DNA from: Nitrosospira sp. Nsp11
Lineage (GTDB): Bacteria > Pseudomonadota > Gammaproteobacteria > Burkholderiales > Nitrosomonadaceae
Direction: 5' to 3'
Length of the DNA: 64,000 nt
Assembly: GCF_900142705.1 (NCBI RefSeq)
Contig: NZ_FRBV01000001.1
Coordinates: 434,001 to 498,000 of the forward strand
Shown: piece by piece, positions 43,627 to 48,111 of the stretch
Layout of the letters: each line of letters starts with the position of its first letter
How positions within the stretch are numbered: the first letter of the stretch is position 1
Translations under genes and position numbers: made by a program
The notes under the pieces: generated by a model
What the model saw: the letters and a program-made list of their open reading frames with translations, nothing else
Told to the model about the DNA's origin: nothing
Database searches by the model: none

Positions 43627-43672
43627 CTTGACCTTCACTTGGTGAGGTTCCTATTTCCGGATTCAGGATAAT
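43627..43672 (+). repeat. Family 2 repeat, right-end fragment
   Basis: CTTGACC...TTCCGGATTCAGGATAAT matches the right end of the element at 63576-63715. Its terminal repeat (43654-43672) abuts and overlaps by two bases the ATG of the next gene. No matching left end is found. Confidence 0.5.
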
Positions 43673-44450
43673 GCATGACGAAAAGAAACCACTGCCTCGA
43701 CGTTTAAACCAGCGTCCAAAAACAAGCAAACTTGCAGCAAGCGAACAGCGCCGTATTAACCTGAATGGCAAGGATGTCGCGTATGTCCTCATGCGCTGCC
43801 GGCGCAAAACCATCGGCATGAAAATCAATAGCGAGGGGTTAACGGTTCGTATTCCGCCGAGAGAACCATTGTGCTGGGTCGAATCAGTATTACAAAAACG
43901 AGCCGATTGGATCGTAAAAAAACTCGACGAATGGAAGAATAAAAAATCGAGCAAGCCTGAGTGGGCCGAAGGCGCGATTTTTCCATTGCTGGGCGAGCCT
44001 TGGCAGGTGACGATTACTACCGACGGGATTGTCCAAATGGTTCCGGCCATGGTGAATGCAGGGGTGGAAGAGGAAAACCAGTTGAAATTGCCGCTCCCAT
44101 CCATGCTGACCGCCAACCAAATCGAAAAAGCGGTGATGAACTGGTATCGCCATCACGCCATGACATGCTTCAGCGAACGCATCGTACTGTATGCGCATAA
44201 GCTCGGCGTGGCGTTGCCACAACTACGATTATCGCGCGCAAGAACCCTATGGGGTAGTTGCAACTCGCGCGGCATAGTCCATCTCAACTGGCGGCTGATC
44301 CAGAAGTCGCTCGACTTGGTGGATTATGTCGTCGCGCACGAGTTGTCGCATCTCATTGAAATGAACCACTCCAAGGCGTTTTGGCAAACGGTGGGGAGCG
44401 TATATCCGGGTTATGCGGCGGCCAGGAAGAAATTGAGGGGGGTTGGGTGA
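43671..44450 (+). CDS. YgjP/SprT-like M48-type metallopeptidase domain protein
   Basis: A 259-residue protein of the DUF45/YgjP family. The zinc motif is HELSHLIEMNHSKAFW (HExxH with a third His), near residue 223-238. Upstream LWGSCNSRGIVHLNWRLI is the family core. The start ATG 43671 overlaps a repeat fragment; a basic N-terminal tail (about 25 residues) may be an addition. Members are annotated as metal-dependent hydrolases; substrates are uncertain. Last gene before the accessory island. Confidence 0.88.
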   Translation: MHDEKKPLPRRLNQRPKTSKLAASEQRRINLNGKDVAYVLMRCRRKTIGMKINSEGLTVRIPPREPLCWVESVLQKRADWIVKKLDEWKNKKSSKPEWAEGAIFPLLGEPWQVTITTDGIVQMVPAMVNAGVEEENQLKLPLPSMLTANQIEKAVMNWYRHHAMTCFSERIVLYAHKLGVALPQLRLSRARTLWGSCNSRGIVHLNWRLIQKSLDLVDYVVAHELSHLIEMNHSKAFWQTVGSVYPGYAAARKKLRGVG

Positions 44451-44795
44451 TGGTGAGATCGGGAATTGCATTCCTGATCTGAAAGCTGTGCCAGAAGCAG
44501 TCGTTACGCCGCGCTATAGGAATCTCCTACAGGTAGGCATCAGTAAGCACCTGATATACAGACGTAAGGAAAAATTTTTCGACAAAAAATTTATGCTTGA
44601 TATGTAAGGAGCTTTATACCTCTTAGTCGTAATTAAAATGCTCGACTCAGCCAAAGCCACAGAGAAAAATCGAAGCGTTCTGAAAATGAATACAGGTTCT
44701 GTGGTCGGAGTAAATATCCGAACATCAGCACTGTATTGAATCATGAGCTCACTGAGAAACTTCGTTGTCGCACAGGAAAATTGAAGAAGGTAGCA
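44451..44795. other. Left edge of the accessory island
   Basis: About 345 bp without a gene. Base composition turns visibly A/T-rich from about 44560 (runs such as GGAAAAATTTTTCGACAAAAAATTT), unlike the GC-rich housekeeping DNA to the left. No tRNA, integrase or direct-repeat attachment site was found. GAAGAAGGTAGCA just before 44796 is the ribosome site of the ATPase gene. Confidence 0.5.
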
Positions 44796-46475
44796 ATGCC
44801 CAAGACGTTACTAAAAAAGCTCGTCATCAAAAAGTTCCGAGCACTGAACAACGTAAATATTGAGTTTGGAACTCATGTTACCGTTATATGCGGGAAAAAT
44901 GGAACTTCTAAATCATCCATCCTTGGTATTGCTGCGCAGATTTTTAGTTTTGAAAAAAACTACCTAAAGGACGAGCAACTGCGATTTCAAACTATAACTG
45001 GATCGAACTTCAAATCATTACCCTCTGAACATTTTCGTTTCTCCGATAAGTATGATGTACCTGGATCATTGGACGTAGCGGTTGAGCTACACGATGGCTA
45101 CAGCGATAACGATGCCACTGCCGAACTTGGATTATTCAGTCGAGGATCTTCTGCTAGACCAGTTGTTCGAAAGAACACAACCGCAGAGAAAGGGAGGGAA
45201 AGTCGCAATTTCACACATCCAGTTATTTTTCTTAGCCTAAAAAGGTTGCAGCCAATCGCCTCCAGAGAATATAAGGTTCGCGATTTCGAGTACTTAAGCG
45301 CGCATGAGCAGCAGTTCATCAACCTGAACAATCAGTTGCTCAACAAAACATCGTCTTCTGCAACAGGCACAGGTGGTTCGATCAACTCAGCAGTCGCACA
45401 CGCAGAAAACTACGATCAAGATTCTGTGTCAGCAGGAGAAGACAATGCTGGACAAATCGTTTTGGCGCTGATGTCCTTTAGAAAGCTAAAGGAAGAATAT
45501 TCCGATTACAAAGGTGGTCTTCTGCTTATCGATGAGGCAGATGCGGGATTGTTCCCAGCAGCACAGACAAAACTGCTCGAGATACTAGAAAAAGAATGCA
45601 ACGATCTTGAGTTGCAAGTAATTATGACTTCCCATTCTCCGACCTTGATCGAACGCACATATGATTTAAGCAAAAAATATCAACGAAAATTCAAAACGGT
45701 GTACCTGAGCGATACCTTTGGTCCTGTTCAGGCTATGCATGACATTTCTTGGCCAGGAATTAATTCCGACCTGCTCACCACAACAGTTGCAGCCCCAAAT
45801 GAAATTTCCTTGCCAAAAATAAATGTCTATTTCGAAGATAAAGAAGGATGGAATTTTTTCAACACGCTGCTATTTCGGCACAAAAGTAAGAAATACATCA
45901 ATCAATTGGATGACGTGTCACTTGGCTGCGCCAACTACATTCAACTTGTGCGAAAAGGCGTTCCGGAATTCTCAGCCAAGAGCATCATCATTCTAGATGG
46001 CGATGTCGAAGGAATAAAGAGTCTTAACTCGATTATTCTGCTGCCAGGGCCGCTGCCGCCCGATCAACTTATATTTGAGTTTTTATACAACCTACCCCCA
46101 AGTGACGAACTCTGGAAAAATACAATCCACTTCACACGACCTGTATTTACTAATTGCGCATCGAAGATAATAAGTACTCTGTCTATTACCGGCAACCAAC
46201 TCAACCTCAAATCACTTGTCGATTCCTTCAGCAAAAGTAATACAACAGAACCGAAAGTCAAGCTTAGAGAGGTATTTAAGGATTTTTATAAAACTCCTGA
46301 TTTTCAAAATTTCCTTACCCAAAAGGGAAAGAATAATCCTTGGAAAAGATGGGCTTACGACAACCAAGCCGCCAGCCAAGAATTTAGATCACTTTTTACA
46401 AAACGCCTCGCCAAGACGATGCGAGATGGCTATGGCGTCGACGAGTCAAAGTTAATTTTTCTAGAAAACAAATAA
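44796..46475 (+). CDS. AAA/ABC-type ATPase fused to a TOPRIM-like domain (OLD/PARIS-like, putative defence)
   Basis: About 559 residues from ATG 44796 (MPKTLLKKLVIKKFRALNNV), chosen for its upstream GAAGG; an ATG at 44736 would add 20 residues. The ATPase part has Walker A GKNGTSKSS (33-41), a signature-like SAGEDNAGQIVLALMSF, Walker B GLLLIDEADAG (D246, E247) and the H-loop TSHSPTLIE. After about residue 335 comes a TOPRIM-like core: VYFEDKEGW (E347) and ILDGDVEG (D401, D403), then an ILLPGPLPPDQLIFEFL segment as in OLD-type and DUF4435 proteins. Such fusions occur in anti-phage systems (OLD nucleases, Gabija GajA, PARIS). An adenine methyltransferase gene follows. Defence by DNA or RNA cleavage is an inference. 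Confidence 0.8.
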   Translation: MPKTLLKKLVIKKFRALNNVNIEFGTHVTVICGKNGTSKSSILGIAAQIFSFEKNYLKDEQLRFQTITGSNFKSLPSEHFRFSDKYDVPGSLDVAVELHDGYSDNDATAELGLFSRGSSARPVVRKNTTAEKGRESRNFTHPVIFLSLKRLQPIASREYKVRDFEYLSAHEQQFINLNNQLLNKTSSSATGTGGSINSAVAHAENYDQDSVSAGEDNAGQIVLALMSFRKLKEEYSDYKGGLLLIDEADAGLFPAAQTKLLEILEKECNDLELQVIMTSHSPTLIERTYDLSKKYQRKFKTVYLSDTFGPVQAMHDISWPGINSDLLTTTVAAPNEISLPKINVYFEDKEGWNFFNTLLFRHKSKKYINQLDDVSLGCANYIQLVRKGVPEFSAKSIIILDGDVEGIKSLNSIILLPGPLPPDQLIFEFLYNLPPSDELWKNTIHFTRPVFTNCASKIISTLSITGNQLNLKSLVDSFSKSNTTEPKVKLREVFKDFYKTPDFQNFLTQKGKNNPWKRWAYDNQAASQEFRSLFTKRLAKTMRDGYGVDESKLIFLENK

Positions 46476-46520
46476 GTTACACAGAGATACCTGGACCTCA
46501 TTCTTTGAGATAATCCTCTC

Positions 46521-47396
46521 ATGTACTCTAATAAGCTTTACACACCTCTGCGCTACCCTGGCGGAAAGGCACGCTTCGCACCCTTCATTGCGCGAGTGAT
46601 GGAAGTAAATGGATTAACGGGCGGCCATTATCTTGAGCCGTATGCTGGTGGTGCGGGCGTTGCACTCGAGTTGCTATATGATGGCCATGCAAACCATGTA
46701 CACATCAATGATTTGGATTCTGCAGTCCACTCCTTCTGGGTTGCGGTAACGAAGAAACCCGAGGAAGTGCTGAAGTTACTTCATGATACGCCTGTCACTA
46801 TGGACCAATGGTTCAAGTGGAGGTTAGTTTTGCGTGGAGAGGTGGAGGCCGACTTGGTTGAGCGCGGCTTTGCGACTTTGTTTATGAATCGCACAAACCG
46901 ATCTGGGATCCTGAAGGGCGGCGTCATTGGTGGTTTAGCACAAAGGGGGAGCTATAAGCTTGATGCCAGATTCAAGAAAGACGCGTTAGCTGCAAGGATA
47001 CGGAAGATCGCGGACCATGCGAGCCAAATTACGGTTTATAGCGAGGATGCTTTGGCTCTGTTGCAGCGCTGTGGGACGTTCCTGCGCAAGGAGTCGCTAA
47101 TTTATCTAGATCCGCCCTACTATGTAAAAGGGCAAGGTCTGTACCGGAATTTTTACATGCACGACGACCACCTCAAAATCGCAACGGCACTGCAATCCAA
47201 CCGATTCATGCTGCCATGGGTGGTGTCCTATGATAACGCTACCGAAATTTGCGATATGTACCGGCTTAGCAAGTGTCTTTCGTATAACTTAAACTATACA
47301 GCTCAAAAGCGCTATGTCGGCAATGAAGTGATGTTTTTCAGTTACGAGCTTCTCGTTCCTGAAAATGAGATTCCGCAGTCGAAGCTGATTGCATAA
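46521..47396 (+). CDS. D12-class adenine-specific DNA methyltransferase (Dam/DpnM-like)
   Basis: A 291-residue N6-adenine methyltransferase. SAM motif X is LRYPGGKAR (10-18), motif I is EPYAGGAG (39-46), and catalytic motif IV is DPPY (197-200). The target-recognition insert lies between (about 70-180), with NRTNRSGILKGGVIGG typical of D12 enzymes. The recognition sequence cannot be read from the protein. It is 45 bp after the ATPase-TOPRIM gene on the same strand with no terminator between, so the two probably form an operon. The ribosome site is weak. Confidence 0.92.
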   Translation: MYSNKLYTPLRYPGGKARFAPFIARVMEVNGLTGGHYLEPYAGGAGVALELLYDGHANHVHINDLDSAVHSFWVAVTKKPEEVLKLLHDTPVTMDQWFKWRLVLRGEVEADLVERGFATLFMNRTNRSGILKGGVIGGLAQRGSYKLDARFKKDALAARIRKIADHASQITVYSEDALALLQRCGTFLRKESLIYLDPPYYVKGQGLYRNFYMHDDHLKIATALQSNRFMLPWVVSYDNATEICDMYRLSKCLSYNLNYTAQKRYVGNEVMFFSYELLVPENEIPQSKLIA

Positions 47397-47559
47397 TAGA
47401 GAAAAGAGCTATTTCTCTCATGTCAAGGTGTTGCGCGATGACTTGCGGAGAAAGATTGCTAAAGTCCCCAGAGCGAGTGTCCTTTCAAGTGGCAATTGAT
47501 ATGGGGCAATAACGCGCGCTTGCTGTCGTTGATGTGGAGACCATCTAAAGAATTTGAGG

Positions 47560-47793
47560 CTACACGCCGATTGTTATTTCGGCGACCTTCACGTGGCCGG
47601 CTTTGCGTTTATCCTTGAGCCGGTAGCTTTCCTTGCACATCTGCACGATATGTGCGTGATGCCGCAACCGAGCCAACATGGCGTCATCAAGGTTGGATCG
47701 TCGGCGGCGCAGTACCTGCGCACAAGGGCGAGCATTGTTCTTAACGTTTAGGATCTTCTCCAGGAAATCGGATCTTCTCCAGGAAATCCTCAT
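47560..47793 (-). pseudogene. 3' remnant of an IS21-type IstB helper ATPase
   Basis: The minus-strand frame ends ...NLDDAMLARLRHHAHIVQMC, KESYRLKDKRKAG..., which resembles the C-terminal end of IstB-like ATPases from IS21-family elements. No Walker motifs, no IstA and no intact gene remain, so this is a decayed insertion. It begins close to a 19-bp tandem duplication (47751-47788). A further minus-strand frame at 47830-48027 could be more debris but is not identified. Confidence 0.55.
47751..47788. repeat. 19-bp tandem duplication
   Basis: GGATCTTCTCCAGGAAATC occurs twice with no spacer (47751-47769, 47770-47788) inside the IstB remnant frame. It looks like a slippage or insertion footprint. 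Confidence 0.85.
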
Positions 47794-48111
47794 CCAATAC
47801 CTGAGTCGCTGCCCGCGGCGATGTCGTTGTCAAGCGCGCTCATTCAACGCCGTCAGCCTTTGCTGCCGGGCTGCCTTGTCCAGCCTGGCTAGTGCCAGCC
47901 GTTCCAGCAACCCCGGCGTCCTGCATTTACCTCTCGTTCTTGCCCGAACGGGTCGCGTCGTATCGATCCCTCCGCCCCTACATATGCTTCCACTCCAACA
48001 GAATTGGCCAGCGGACTCGTGCATCATGTTGACTTCGTTTTCGATGGGTGAACCGCCCGAGTCGCTCTGTTGGCTCTCATTTTAGCGGTGCAGAAGGCCT
48101 CCTCCATCCCC
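47794..48111. other. Insertion-sequence debris, no intact gene
   Basis: About 320 bp between the IstB remnant and the promoter at 48112. A 65-codon minus-strand frame (47830-48027, ending LERLALARLDKAARQQ...) has coding-like composition but no recognised homology or ribosome site. Confidence 0.4.

Follow-up and report, generated by a model that had tools for sequence, protein, structure and literature searches.

The stretch of DNA analyzed here, 64,000 nucleotides of the genome of Nitrosospira sp. Nsp11 (NZ_FRBV01000001.1, positions 434,001–498,000, forward strand; hereafter the window), contains two adjacent genes, encoding an ABC ATPase-TOPRIM protein and a D12-class N6-adenine DNA methyltransferase, which form a conserved, near-obligate unit, associated far beyond chance, and which most likely constitute, as judged from their sequences, an immune cassette telling own DNA from virus DNA. 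Both proteins have intact active sites, their genes are linked near-obligately, the methyltransferase changes partners, the pair is patchily present, and relatives lie on predicted viral contigs; the best reading of the pair appears to be a defence cassette that would work either in a restriction-modification-like or in a methylation-guarded abortive manner. The parts of the pair, numbered from the first letter of the window, are as follows.

44796..46475, plus strand: ABC ATPase-TOPRIM protein of 559 amino acids (phrog_3940 type), a presumed ATP-gated nuclease or effector (evidence: open reading frame, Pfam, alignment, fold and profile)
44892..44915, plus strand: Walker A motif GKNGTSKS, residues 33–40 (translation and alignment)
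45531..45536, plus strand: Walker B motif, D246/E247 (translation and alignment)
45807..46115, plus strand: TOPRIM core, about residues 338–440 (bounds set by eye), with E347-D348, D401-x-D403 and D423 in an LPPD motif
46116..46472, plus strand: C-terminal helical region, about residues 441–559, fast evolving except for K495
46521..47396, plus strand: D12 N6-adenine DNA methyltransferase of 291 amino acids, PD-Lambda-5_B family, with DPPY at 47109–47120

The open reading frame (ORF) of the ATPase-TOPRIM protein begins with an ATG at 44796 and stops at 46475, and the methyltransferase ORF follows on the same strand after a gap of 45 bp. This arrangement, with a D12 adenine methyltransferase and its intact DPPY, had been read in the same way in an earlier note made from the sequence of the window alone (the original prediction), and both the ORFs and Pfam agree with it.

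The linkage of the two genes was surveyed across relatives. When an alignment of four relatives served as the query, the scan of named genomes gave 72 loci and that of viral contigs 79, the viral list being limited to the best 80 of 102. Models were then built from five seed pairs, and the ATPase-TOPRIM score exceeded 200 in 144 loci, the five seeds included. The methyltransferase was present in 131 of the 139 non-seed loci (136/144 with the seeds), and seven of the eight loci devoid of it end at a contig edge 0–3 bases after the ATPase ORF. In 102 of the 144 loci it is the next gene downstream on the same strand, in 12 it lies directly upstream, in 6 the two genes are neighbours and converge, and in 16 the methyltransferase is more distant, one of these (L139; loci are denoted L and genomes G) being counted there only because its ATPase ORF is split; with regard to changes of order and strand among the paired loci, the methyltransferase lies upstream in 13 and on the opposite strand in 8. 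Of the 139 non-seed loci, 78 lie on predicted viral contigs; the other 61 are in genome contigs, whose titles name Pseudomonadota, Bacteroidota, Bacillota, an archaeon and further groups, and all but one of these (60 of 61) show the pairing, the exception (L056) being cut at a contig edge. The methyltransferase was found in none of the six loci retrieved with the HEC-04 model (in the fetched DNA, two loci being near contig edges), none of the 12 GajA loci (about 1.5 kb on each side) and none of the 11 weak-hit loci from the named-genome scan. Furthermore, the distances among the ATPases correlate with those among the methyltransferases (r = 0.73 over the 102 pairs left after dereplication at 90%, and r = 0.81 over the 59 pairs of the window clade, host phylogeny being uncorrected in both), the largest values from 2000 permutations being 0.15 and 0.26, respectively. 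In three loci (L134, L139 and L148) the ATPase ORF is split or cut and the methyltransferase is intact, and no locus was seen with an intact ATPase and a methyltransferase ORF under 265 codons. A scan of viral contigs with the ATPase-TOPRIM protein of the window alone gave one stretch matching a pattern, none being confirmed. Because the homologues nearly always co-occur with the methyltransferase, the alternative raised in the original prediction that the methylase is an unrelated neighbour was dismissed, the distance correlation arguing likewise, and the coupled restriction-modification-like or self/non-self module that it had proposed gains support from this co-occurrence together with the invariance of the TOPRIM residues described below; the two outcomes that the original prediction had named as arguing against coupling were looked for and not seen.

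The ATPase-TOPRIM protein has the architecture of the OLD superfamily, an ABC ATPase with Walker A, Walker B and H-loop motifs fused to a TOPRIM domain with E…DxD, and Pfam places its ATPase with AAA_15/AAA_21 (AAA_15, E = 4e-16). In the 127 distinct sequences, including that of the window, that remain of the 144 loci after 4 with a truncated or a split ORF and 13 duplicates were set aside, D246, H280 of the H-loop, E347, D348, D401 and D403 are invariant, E247 and K495 are each kept in 126, and K39 is kept in 124, with gaps in the other three; residue 423 of the LPP[DE] motif is Asp in 99% of the 82 window-clade sequences and Glu in 98% of the 45 divergent ones. The Walker B and H-loop motifs and the TOPRIM residues E347, D401 and D403 named in the original prediction are thus borne out, and the Walker A motif is present as well, although it spans residues 33–40 rather than 33–41. 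OLD nucleases are reported to carry catalytic acids and a basic residue (PMC7049728), and E347, D401, D403, D/E423 and K495 resemble the set of TsOLD and BpOLD by order and kind, as compared without residue alignment. Structure prediction, which the original prediction had proposed as a check, gave a full-length AlphaFold2 model with a mean predicted local distance difference test score (pLDDT) of 92.9 and a predicted template modelling score of 0.63, in which an ABC ATPase head is followed by a linker of low prediction quality at about residues 330–335, by an order of strands and helices that by our own reading fits TOPRIM, and by a helical C-terminus. Its first Foldseek match in the PDB was the OLD nuclease 6p74 (1.2e-12), followed by GajA and retron Eco8; the whole-chain superposition on these matches was loose (template modelling score about 0.3), as would be expected if the two domains were turned relative to each other.

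A profile search, likewise proposed at the outset, was made with hhalign against four comparators, with E-values valid for single comparisons. The closest comparator was a set of five proteins found with the PADLOC HEC-04 model (full length, 99.8% probability, E = 3.6e-29; TOPRIM part, 90.9%, E = 1.2e-6), which have the ED, D-x-D and LPP[DE] motifs in common with the window protein. The TOPRIM part matched a DUF4435 (AriB-like) protein weakly (E = 0.0011, probability 20%) and gave no profile match to GajA or P2 Old; Pfam gave no DUF4435 match at E ≤ 1. The match of the window protein to the HEC-04 model itself, among the best 25 of 132 PADLOC matches, is driven mainly by the ATPase part, and in PHROGs the protein belongs to phrog_3940 (3.2e-143), whose function is listed as unknown. 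The window protein has a TOPRIM of the HEC-04 type, and the nearest known ATPase-TOPRIM is HEC-04/IbfA, a single-gene ABC ATPase-TOPRIM defence; the proteins compared were the five retrieved with the model, not those studied experimentally as HEC-04 and IbfA. Protection by HEC-04 is reported for phages T4 and T5, though not for T7 or lambda, and its homologue IbfA is reported to lower phage productivity by abortive infection (PMC12111858). In contrast to the window type with its dedicated D12 methyltransferase, HEC-04 is a single gene. We consider the window protein a presumed ATP-gated nuclease or effector.

The methyltransferase is assigned to the D12 class of N6-adenine enzymes by Pfam (MethyltransfD12, 9.8e-17) and to PD-Lambda-5_B by PADLOC (PDLC04018, residues 5–284, E = 3.7e-112), and is distantly related to Dam (43.8 bits against a cut-off of 114.85). 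Its DPPY motif, residues 197–200, is kept in all 120 distinct methyltransferases found with the ATPase-TOPRIM protein. It thus corresponds to one component of PD-lambda-5 (Vassallo 2022), which is reported to give broad protection, was called by its authors a compacted prophage restriction-modification and abortive-infection system, and was tested in a host without the mrr region (PMC9519451). The other component, PD-Lambda-5_A, is ParB-like by our reading of its sequence, with no Pfam ParB match obtained, and its place is taken in the window by the ATPase-TOPRIM protein. A complete PD-lambda-5 at this locus was rejected, since the list of ORFs at the locus holds no gene of the size of PD-Lambda-5_A between or beside the pair, and PD-Lambda-5_A is absent from the best 25 of 132 PADLOC matches to the ATPase-TOPRIM protein. 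This absence is stated for the locus, since a genome-wide search with one of the 25 PADLOC models gave no signal in any of the control genomes either.

Elsewhere, methyltransferases of the PD-Lambda-5_B type are accompanied by PD-Lambda-5_A, by the ATPase-TOPRIM protein or by both, a PD-Lambda-5_A-like gene occurring in 30 loci and thirty relatives having the full set of three genes. In Vibrio phage ValB1MD-2, PD-Lambda-5_A (as two ORFs) and the methyltransferase stand together with a convergent ATPase-TOPRIM gene. On a quick tree of 111 methyltransferases the partner label (ATPase-TOPRIM, PD-Lambda-5_A-like or both) changes at least 14 times and the presence of the ATPase-TOPRIM protein 5 times, truncated flanks possibly mislabelling some rows; because the labels switch so often, repeated gain, loss or exchange of partners seems to have taken place. 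Other gene combinations were also seen. Two genes lie between the ATPase-TOPRIM gene and the methyltransferase gene at L048:7596-12285 and L065:1641-7653, the larger being HerA/DUF87-like (tested in L048 only) and the other without family match. At L188:4632-10875, a PD-Lambda-5_A-like gene and the methyltransferase gene lie ahead of genes for an AAA_21 ATPase and a DUF4435 protein, which looks like a PD-lambda-5-like pair near a PARIS-like pair. The original prediction had proposed a coupled module, which is supported, but saw neither the PD-Lambda-5_B identity of the methyltransferase, nor the effectors sharing it, nor the kinship with HEC-04.

As for the working of the pair, we put at about an even chance that it is a two-gene anti-phage cassette operating like a restriction-modification system. 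In the predicted mechanism, the methyltransferase would methylate adenines at a motif across the host genome, and the methyl mark would keep the ATPase-TOPRIM protein away from host DNA. The latter protein, presumably a nuclease gated by ATP that belongs to the wider OLD superfamily and is closest to HEC-04, would attack unmarked DNA such as that of an incoming phage or plasmid. What we infer here is that the substrate is DNA, that methylation serves as the self-mark, that ATP acts as a gate and that the window copy has an anti-phage role; stated more broadly, the methyltransferase may write a self-mark, and the ATPase-TOPRIM protein may act on DNA, or on the cell, when that mark is missing. 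The likeness to type II restriction-modification lies in a DNA adenine methyltransferase beside a presumed nuclease, although the latter is here an ATP-binding OLD-like protein in place of a classical endonuclease.

A number of observations speak against this interpretation and have to be weighed. The loci were found via the ATPase, and the pairing is thus measured from the ATPase side; when the search starts from the methyltransferase, a match at E ≤ 1e-30 is present in 10 of the 349 genomes of the phylum, the partner being the ATPase-TOPRIM protein in two (the window genome itself and G154, with an ATPase score of only 188), a PD-Lambda-5_A-like gene in seven (in one of which the methyltransferase match crosses a stop) and a contig edge in one. 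Within the genus, the methyltransferase match occurs in 3 of 23 genomes, namely that of the window, G005, whose methyltransferase has a PD-Lambda-5_A-like partner (L191), and, weakly, G020. One locus, L132, truly lacks the methyltransferase in 13.6 kb (flanks of 5.6 and 6.0 kb); L154, which has a split ATPase with a score of 180 and stands outside the 144, also shows none, its stretch ending 425 bases on; and the seven contig-edge loci have a left flank of about 5.9 kb without the methyltransferase, their contigs ending before the downstream side. Some of the control loci are short-flanked, with about 1.5 kb a side for GajA and with L066 and L197 near contig edges. The viral contigs are redundant, giving 127 distinct ATPase sequences and 102 pairs after dereplication at 90%, and the distance correlation ignores host phylogeny. 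The PD-Lambda-5_A-like model was trained on 24 of the 30 loci it finds, and the three loci with a damaged ATPase are too few to prove addiction, assembly errors being possible. The isolated model of residues 336–559 (TOPRIM and C-terminal region; pLDDT 95.6) matched nothing at E ≤ 0.001, either in the PDB or in the set of viral models, the nearest relevant entries being XccOLD 6njx (E = 0.33) and PARIS 8ux9 (E = 0.68); since these searches came back empty, the TOPRIM call rests on the motifs, the strand and helix order, the full-length fold and the HEC-04 profile. HEC-04 and IbfA act without a dedicated methyltransferase, as described in PMC12111858, and because of this the ATPase-TOPRIM protein need not be a restriction enzyme. 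Finally, the methyltransferases of L038 and L182 are 63% identical to that of the window, whereas their ATPase-TOPRIM proteins are only 31–34% identical in the ATPase part; such similar methyltransferases with very different ATPases argue against a nuclease that reads the motif of the methyltransferase.

Because partners have been exchanged, sensing may proceed via the methyltransferase or its product rather than by motif reading by the nuclease. It is conceivable, though we would stop short of calling it probable, that the PD-Lambda-5_B methyltransferase is a shared self-marking chassis in a modular immunity super-family of bacteria and archaea, with interchangeable effectors that would sense the loss of the mark through the methyltransferase or its state and not through the motif. 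In this scheme, the effector joined to the chassis would be ParB-like (PD-lambda-5), OLD/HEC-04-like ATPase-TOPRIM (the window), both, or the latter plus a HerA-type ATPase gene; of these forms, only the one with ParB was found to be experimentally tested in the literature searched.

Less likely in our estimate is guarded abortive infection, in which the ATPase-TOPRIM protein would be a toxic effector (a DNase or a tRNase) and the methyltransferase or its methylation would be under guard; a phage that interfered with methylation or supplied a trigger protein would free the effector, and the infected cell would stop growing. Such a scheme is consistent with the closest characterized relatives being single-gene defences, of which IbfA is reported as abortive (PMC12111858), and with the weak match of the TOPRIM profile to the DUF4435 protein. 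In the 32 loci with the closest methyltransferases, the C-terminal region has an identity to the window protein of 0.30–0.47, as against 0.55–0.75 for the ATPase part, and because of this lower conservation it could be a sensor; the partner exchange seen in L038 and L182 is likewise easier to reconcile with a guard than with a restriction enzyme that reads a motif. However, deletion of either PARIS gene is reported to be non-toxic (PMC9122126), and guard logic alone therefore does not demand a near-obligate methyltransferase. In a further reading the two genes would be independent cargo: the methyltransferase would serve a prophage as a shield against restriction by the host, superinfecting phage would be excluded by the ATPase-TOPRIM protein, and only the clustering of prophage cargo would have brought them together. 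The predicted viral origin of more than half of the non-seed loci (78/139) is in agreement with this idea, as is the fact that 28 loci have, no more than 2.5 kb from the pair, a member of an ORF cluster called integrase-like after those annotated in L002 and L005. We nevertheless regard the idea as improbable, given that the pairing also holds in the genome contigs (60/61), persists when gene order or strand differs, and was found with none of the sister ATPases.

That the methylase in the window is unrelated to its neighbour, and the latter an already known protein of the OLD class 1, Gabija or fused PARIS type, as the original prediction had allowed and as the architecture and full-length fold resembling OLD and GajA might suggest, is very improbable, there being no adjacent helicase ORF, no DUF4435 at E ≤ 1, no TOPRIM match to GajA or P2 Old, and a methyltransferase that is no unrelated neighbour (131/139). 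Membership in Gabija, P2 Old or fused PARIS was accordingly rejected. The pair is nevertheless worth comparing with these systems. OLD nucleases and GajA are alike in having an N-terminal ABC ATPase and a C-terminal TOPRIM, and were the first Foldseek matches. Gabija contains the UvrD-like helicase GajB, whereas the pair in the window has no neighbouring ORF of helicase size and has the methyltransferase instead; OLD class 1 is a stand-alone gene, in contrast to the methyltransferase-paired window type. PARIS (AriA/AriB) follows a similar logic of ATPase and TOPRIM, with a weak TOPRIM resemblance, but has a DUF4435 TOPRIM, whereas the window type is one fused gene with a methyltransferase partner.

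The genomic surroundings of the pair in the genus were also viewed, and comprise the following features.

43671..44450, plus strand: ygjP-like metallopeptidase gene, the conserved left flank of a variable slot
44454..47820, no strand: stretch without DNA counterpart in G006 (blastn), containing the gene pair and an IS21 istB remnant
47563..47793, minus strand: IS21 istB C-terminal remnant (PF01695, 1.4e-07), near the right end of the preceding stretch

The ATPase-TOPRIM protein occurs in only one of the 23 genus genomes, that of the window, one other giving a 29% match over 55 residues. Relative to the nearest same-genus genome, G006, the blastn match stops at 44453 and resumes at 47821. The three 1-kb bins over the pair have G+C contents of 0.466, 0.435 and 0.452, as against 0.50–0.57 in most other bins of the window, with a few down to 0.46, so that the A/T-rich island of the original prediction is a fair label for a mild effect. 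The stretch after ygjP was viewed in 17 of 22 sister genomes, and both flanks were found in 16, the right flank being what we take by eye to be lysA; the interval is 260–500 bp in 6 of the 16 and longer in 10. The slot of G013 (L164:2801-6817) holds Hachiman HamA and a HamB ORF matching its model from position 183, and in that of G006 lie three genes that PADLOC does not match, one of which has a weak, below-cut-off likeness to HSDR_N. In another sister species the slot has a 237-amino-acid gene (L166:2501-3211), presumably NucS-like as it appears by eye. Because much other content, viewed and not scanned, is not recognizable as defence, we call this a variable slot able to hold defence and not a proven defence island. 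In other genomic settings, the pair adjoins or lies between a large helicase gene and a type III-like methyltransferase gene (L012, L014, L020, L022, L023 and L024) or lies beside one of them (L010 and L018); the helicase of L012, the only one of these loci scanned, has DrmD as its best PADLOC match and also matches HmaA, and the pair in such loci looks as if embedded in another defence operon.

The pair is undescribed in the published papers covered by our keyword search, whose scope excluded preprints and an ABC-ATPase survey (doi 10.1093/nar/gkaa726). According to PMC12839542, that survey described OLD-TOPRIM neighbourhoods and restriction-modification-like ABC-ATPase systems, and because of this an earlier mention of the pair is quite possible. 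The pair is named by no PADLOC match (the best 25 of 132 for the ATPase-TOPRIM protein and all 17 for the methyltransferase), by no NCBIfam model above cut-off among the matches listed, and by no PHROG. ATPase-TOPRIM nucleases of the OLD type are described in PMC10568477 as occurring on their own, together with a helicase as in Gabija, as parts of retrons, and in PARIS as a split version; how Gabija discriminates self from non-self is stated to be unknown in PMC12407980. This near-obligate and widespread pairing with a single methyltransferase family offers a direct handle on self/non-self discrimination in OLD-type nucleases, ties PD-lambda-5 to the OLD/HEC-04 group, and provides a hypothesis for the role of phrog_3940, a phage protein family.

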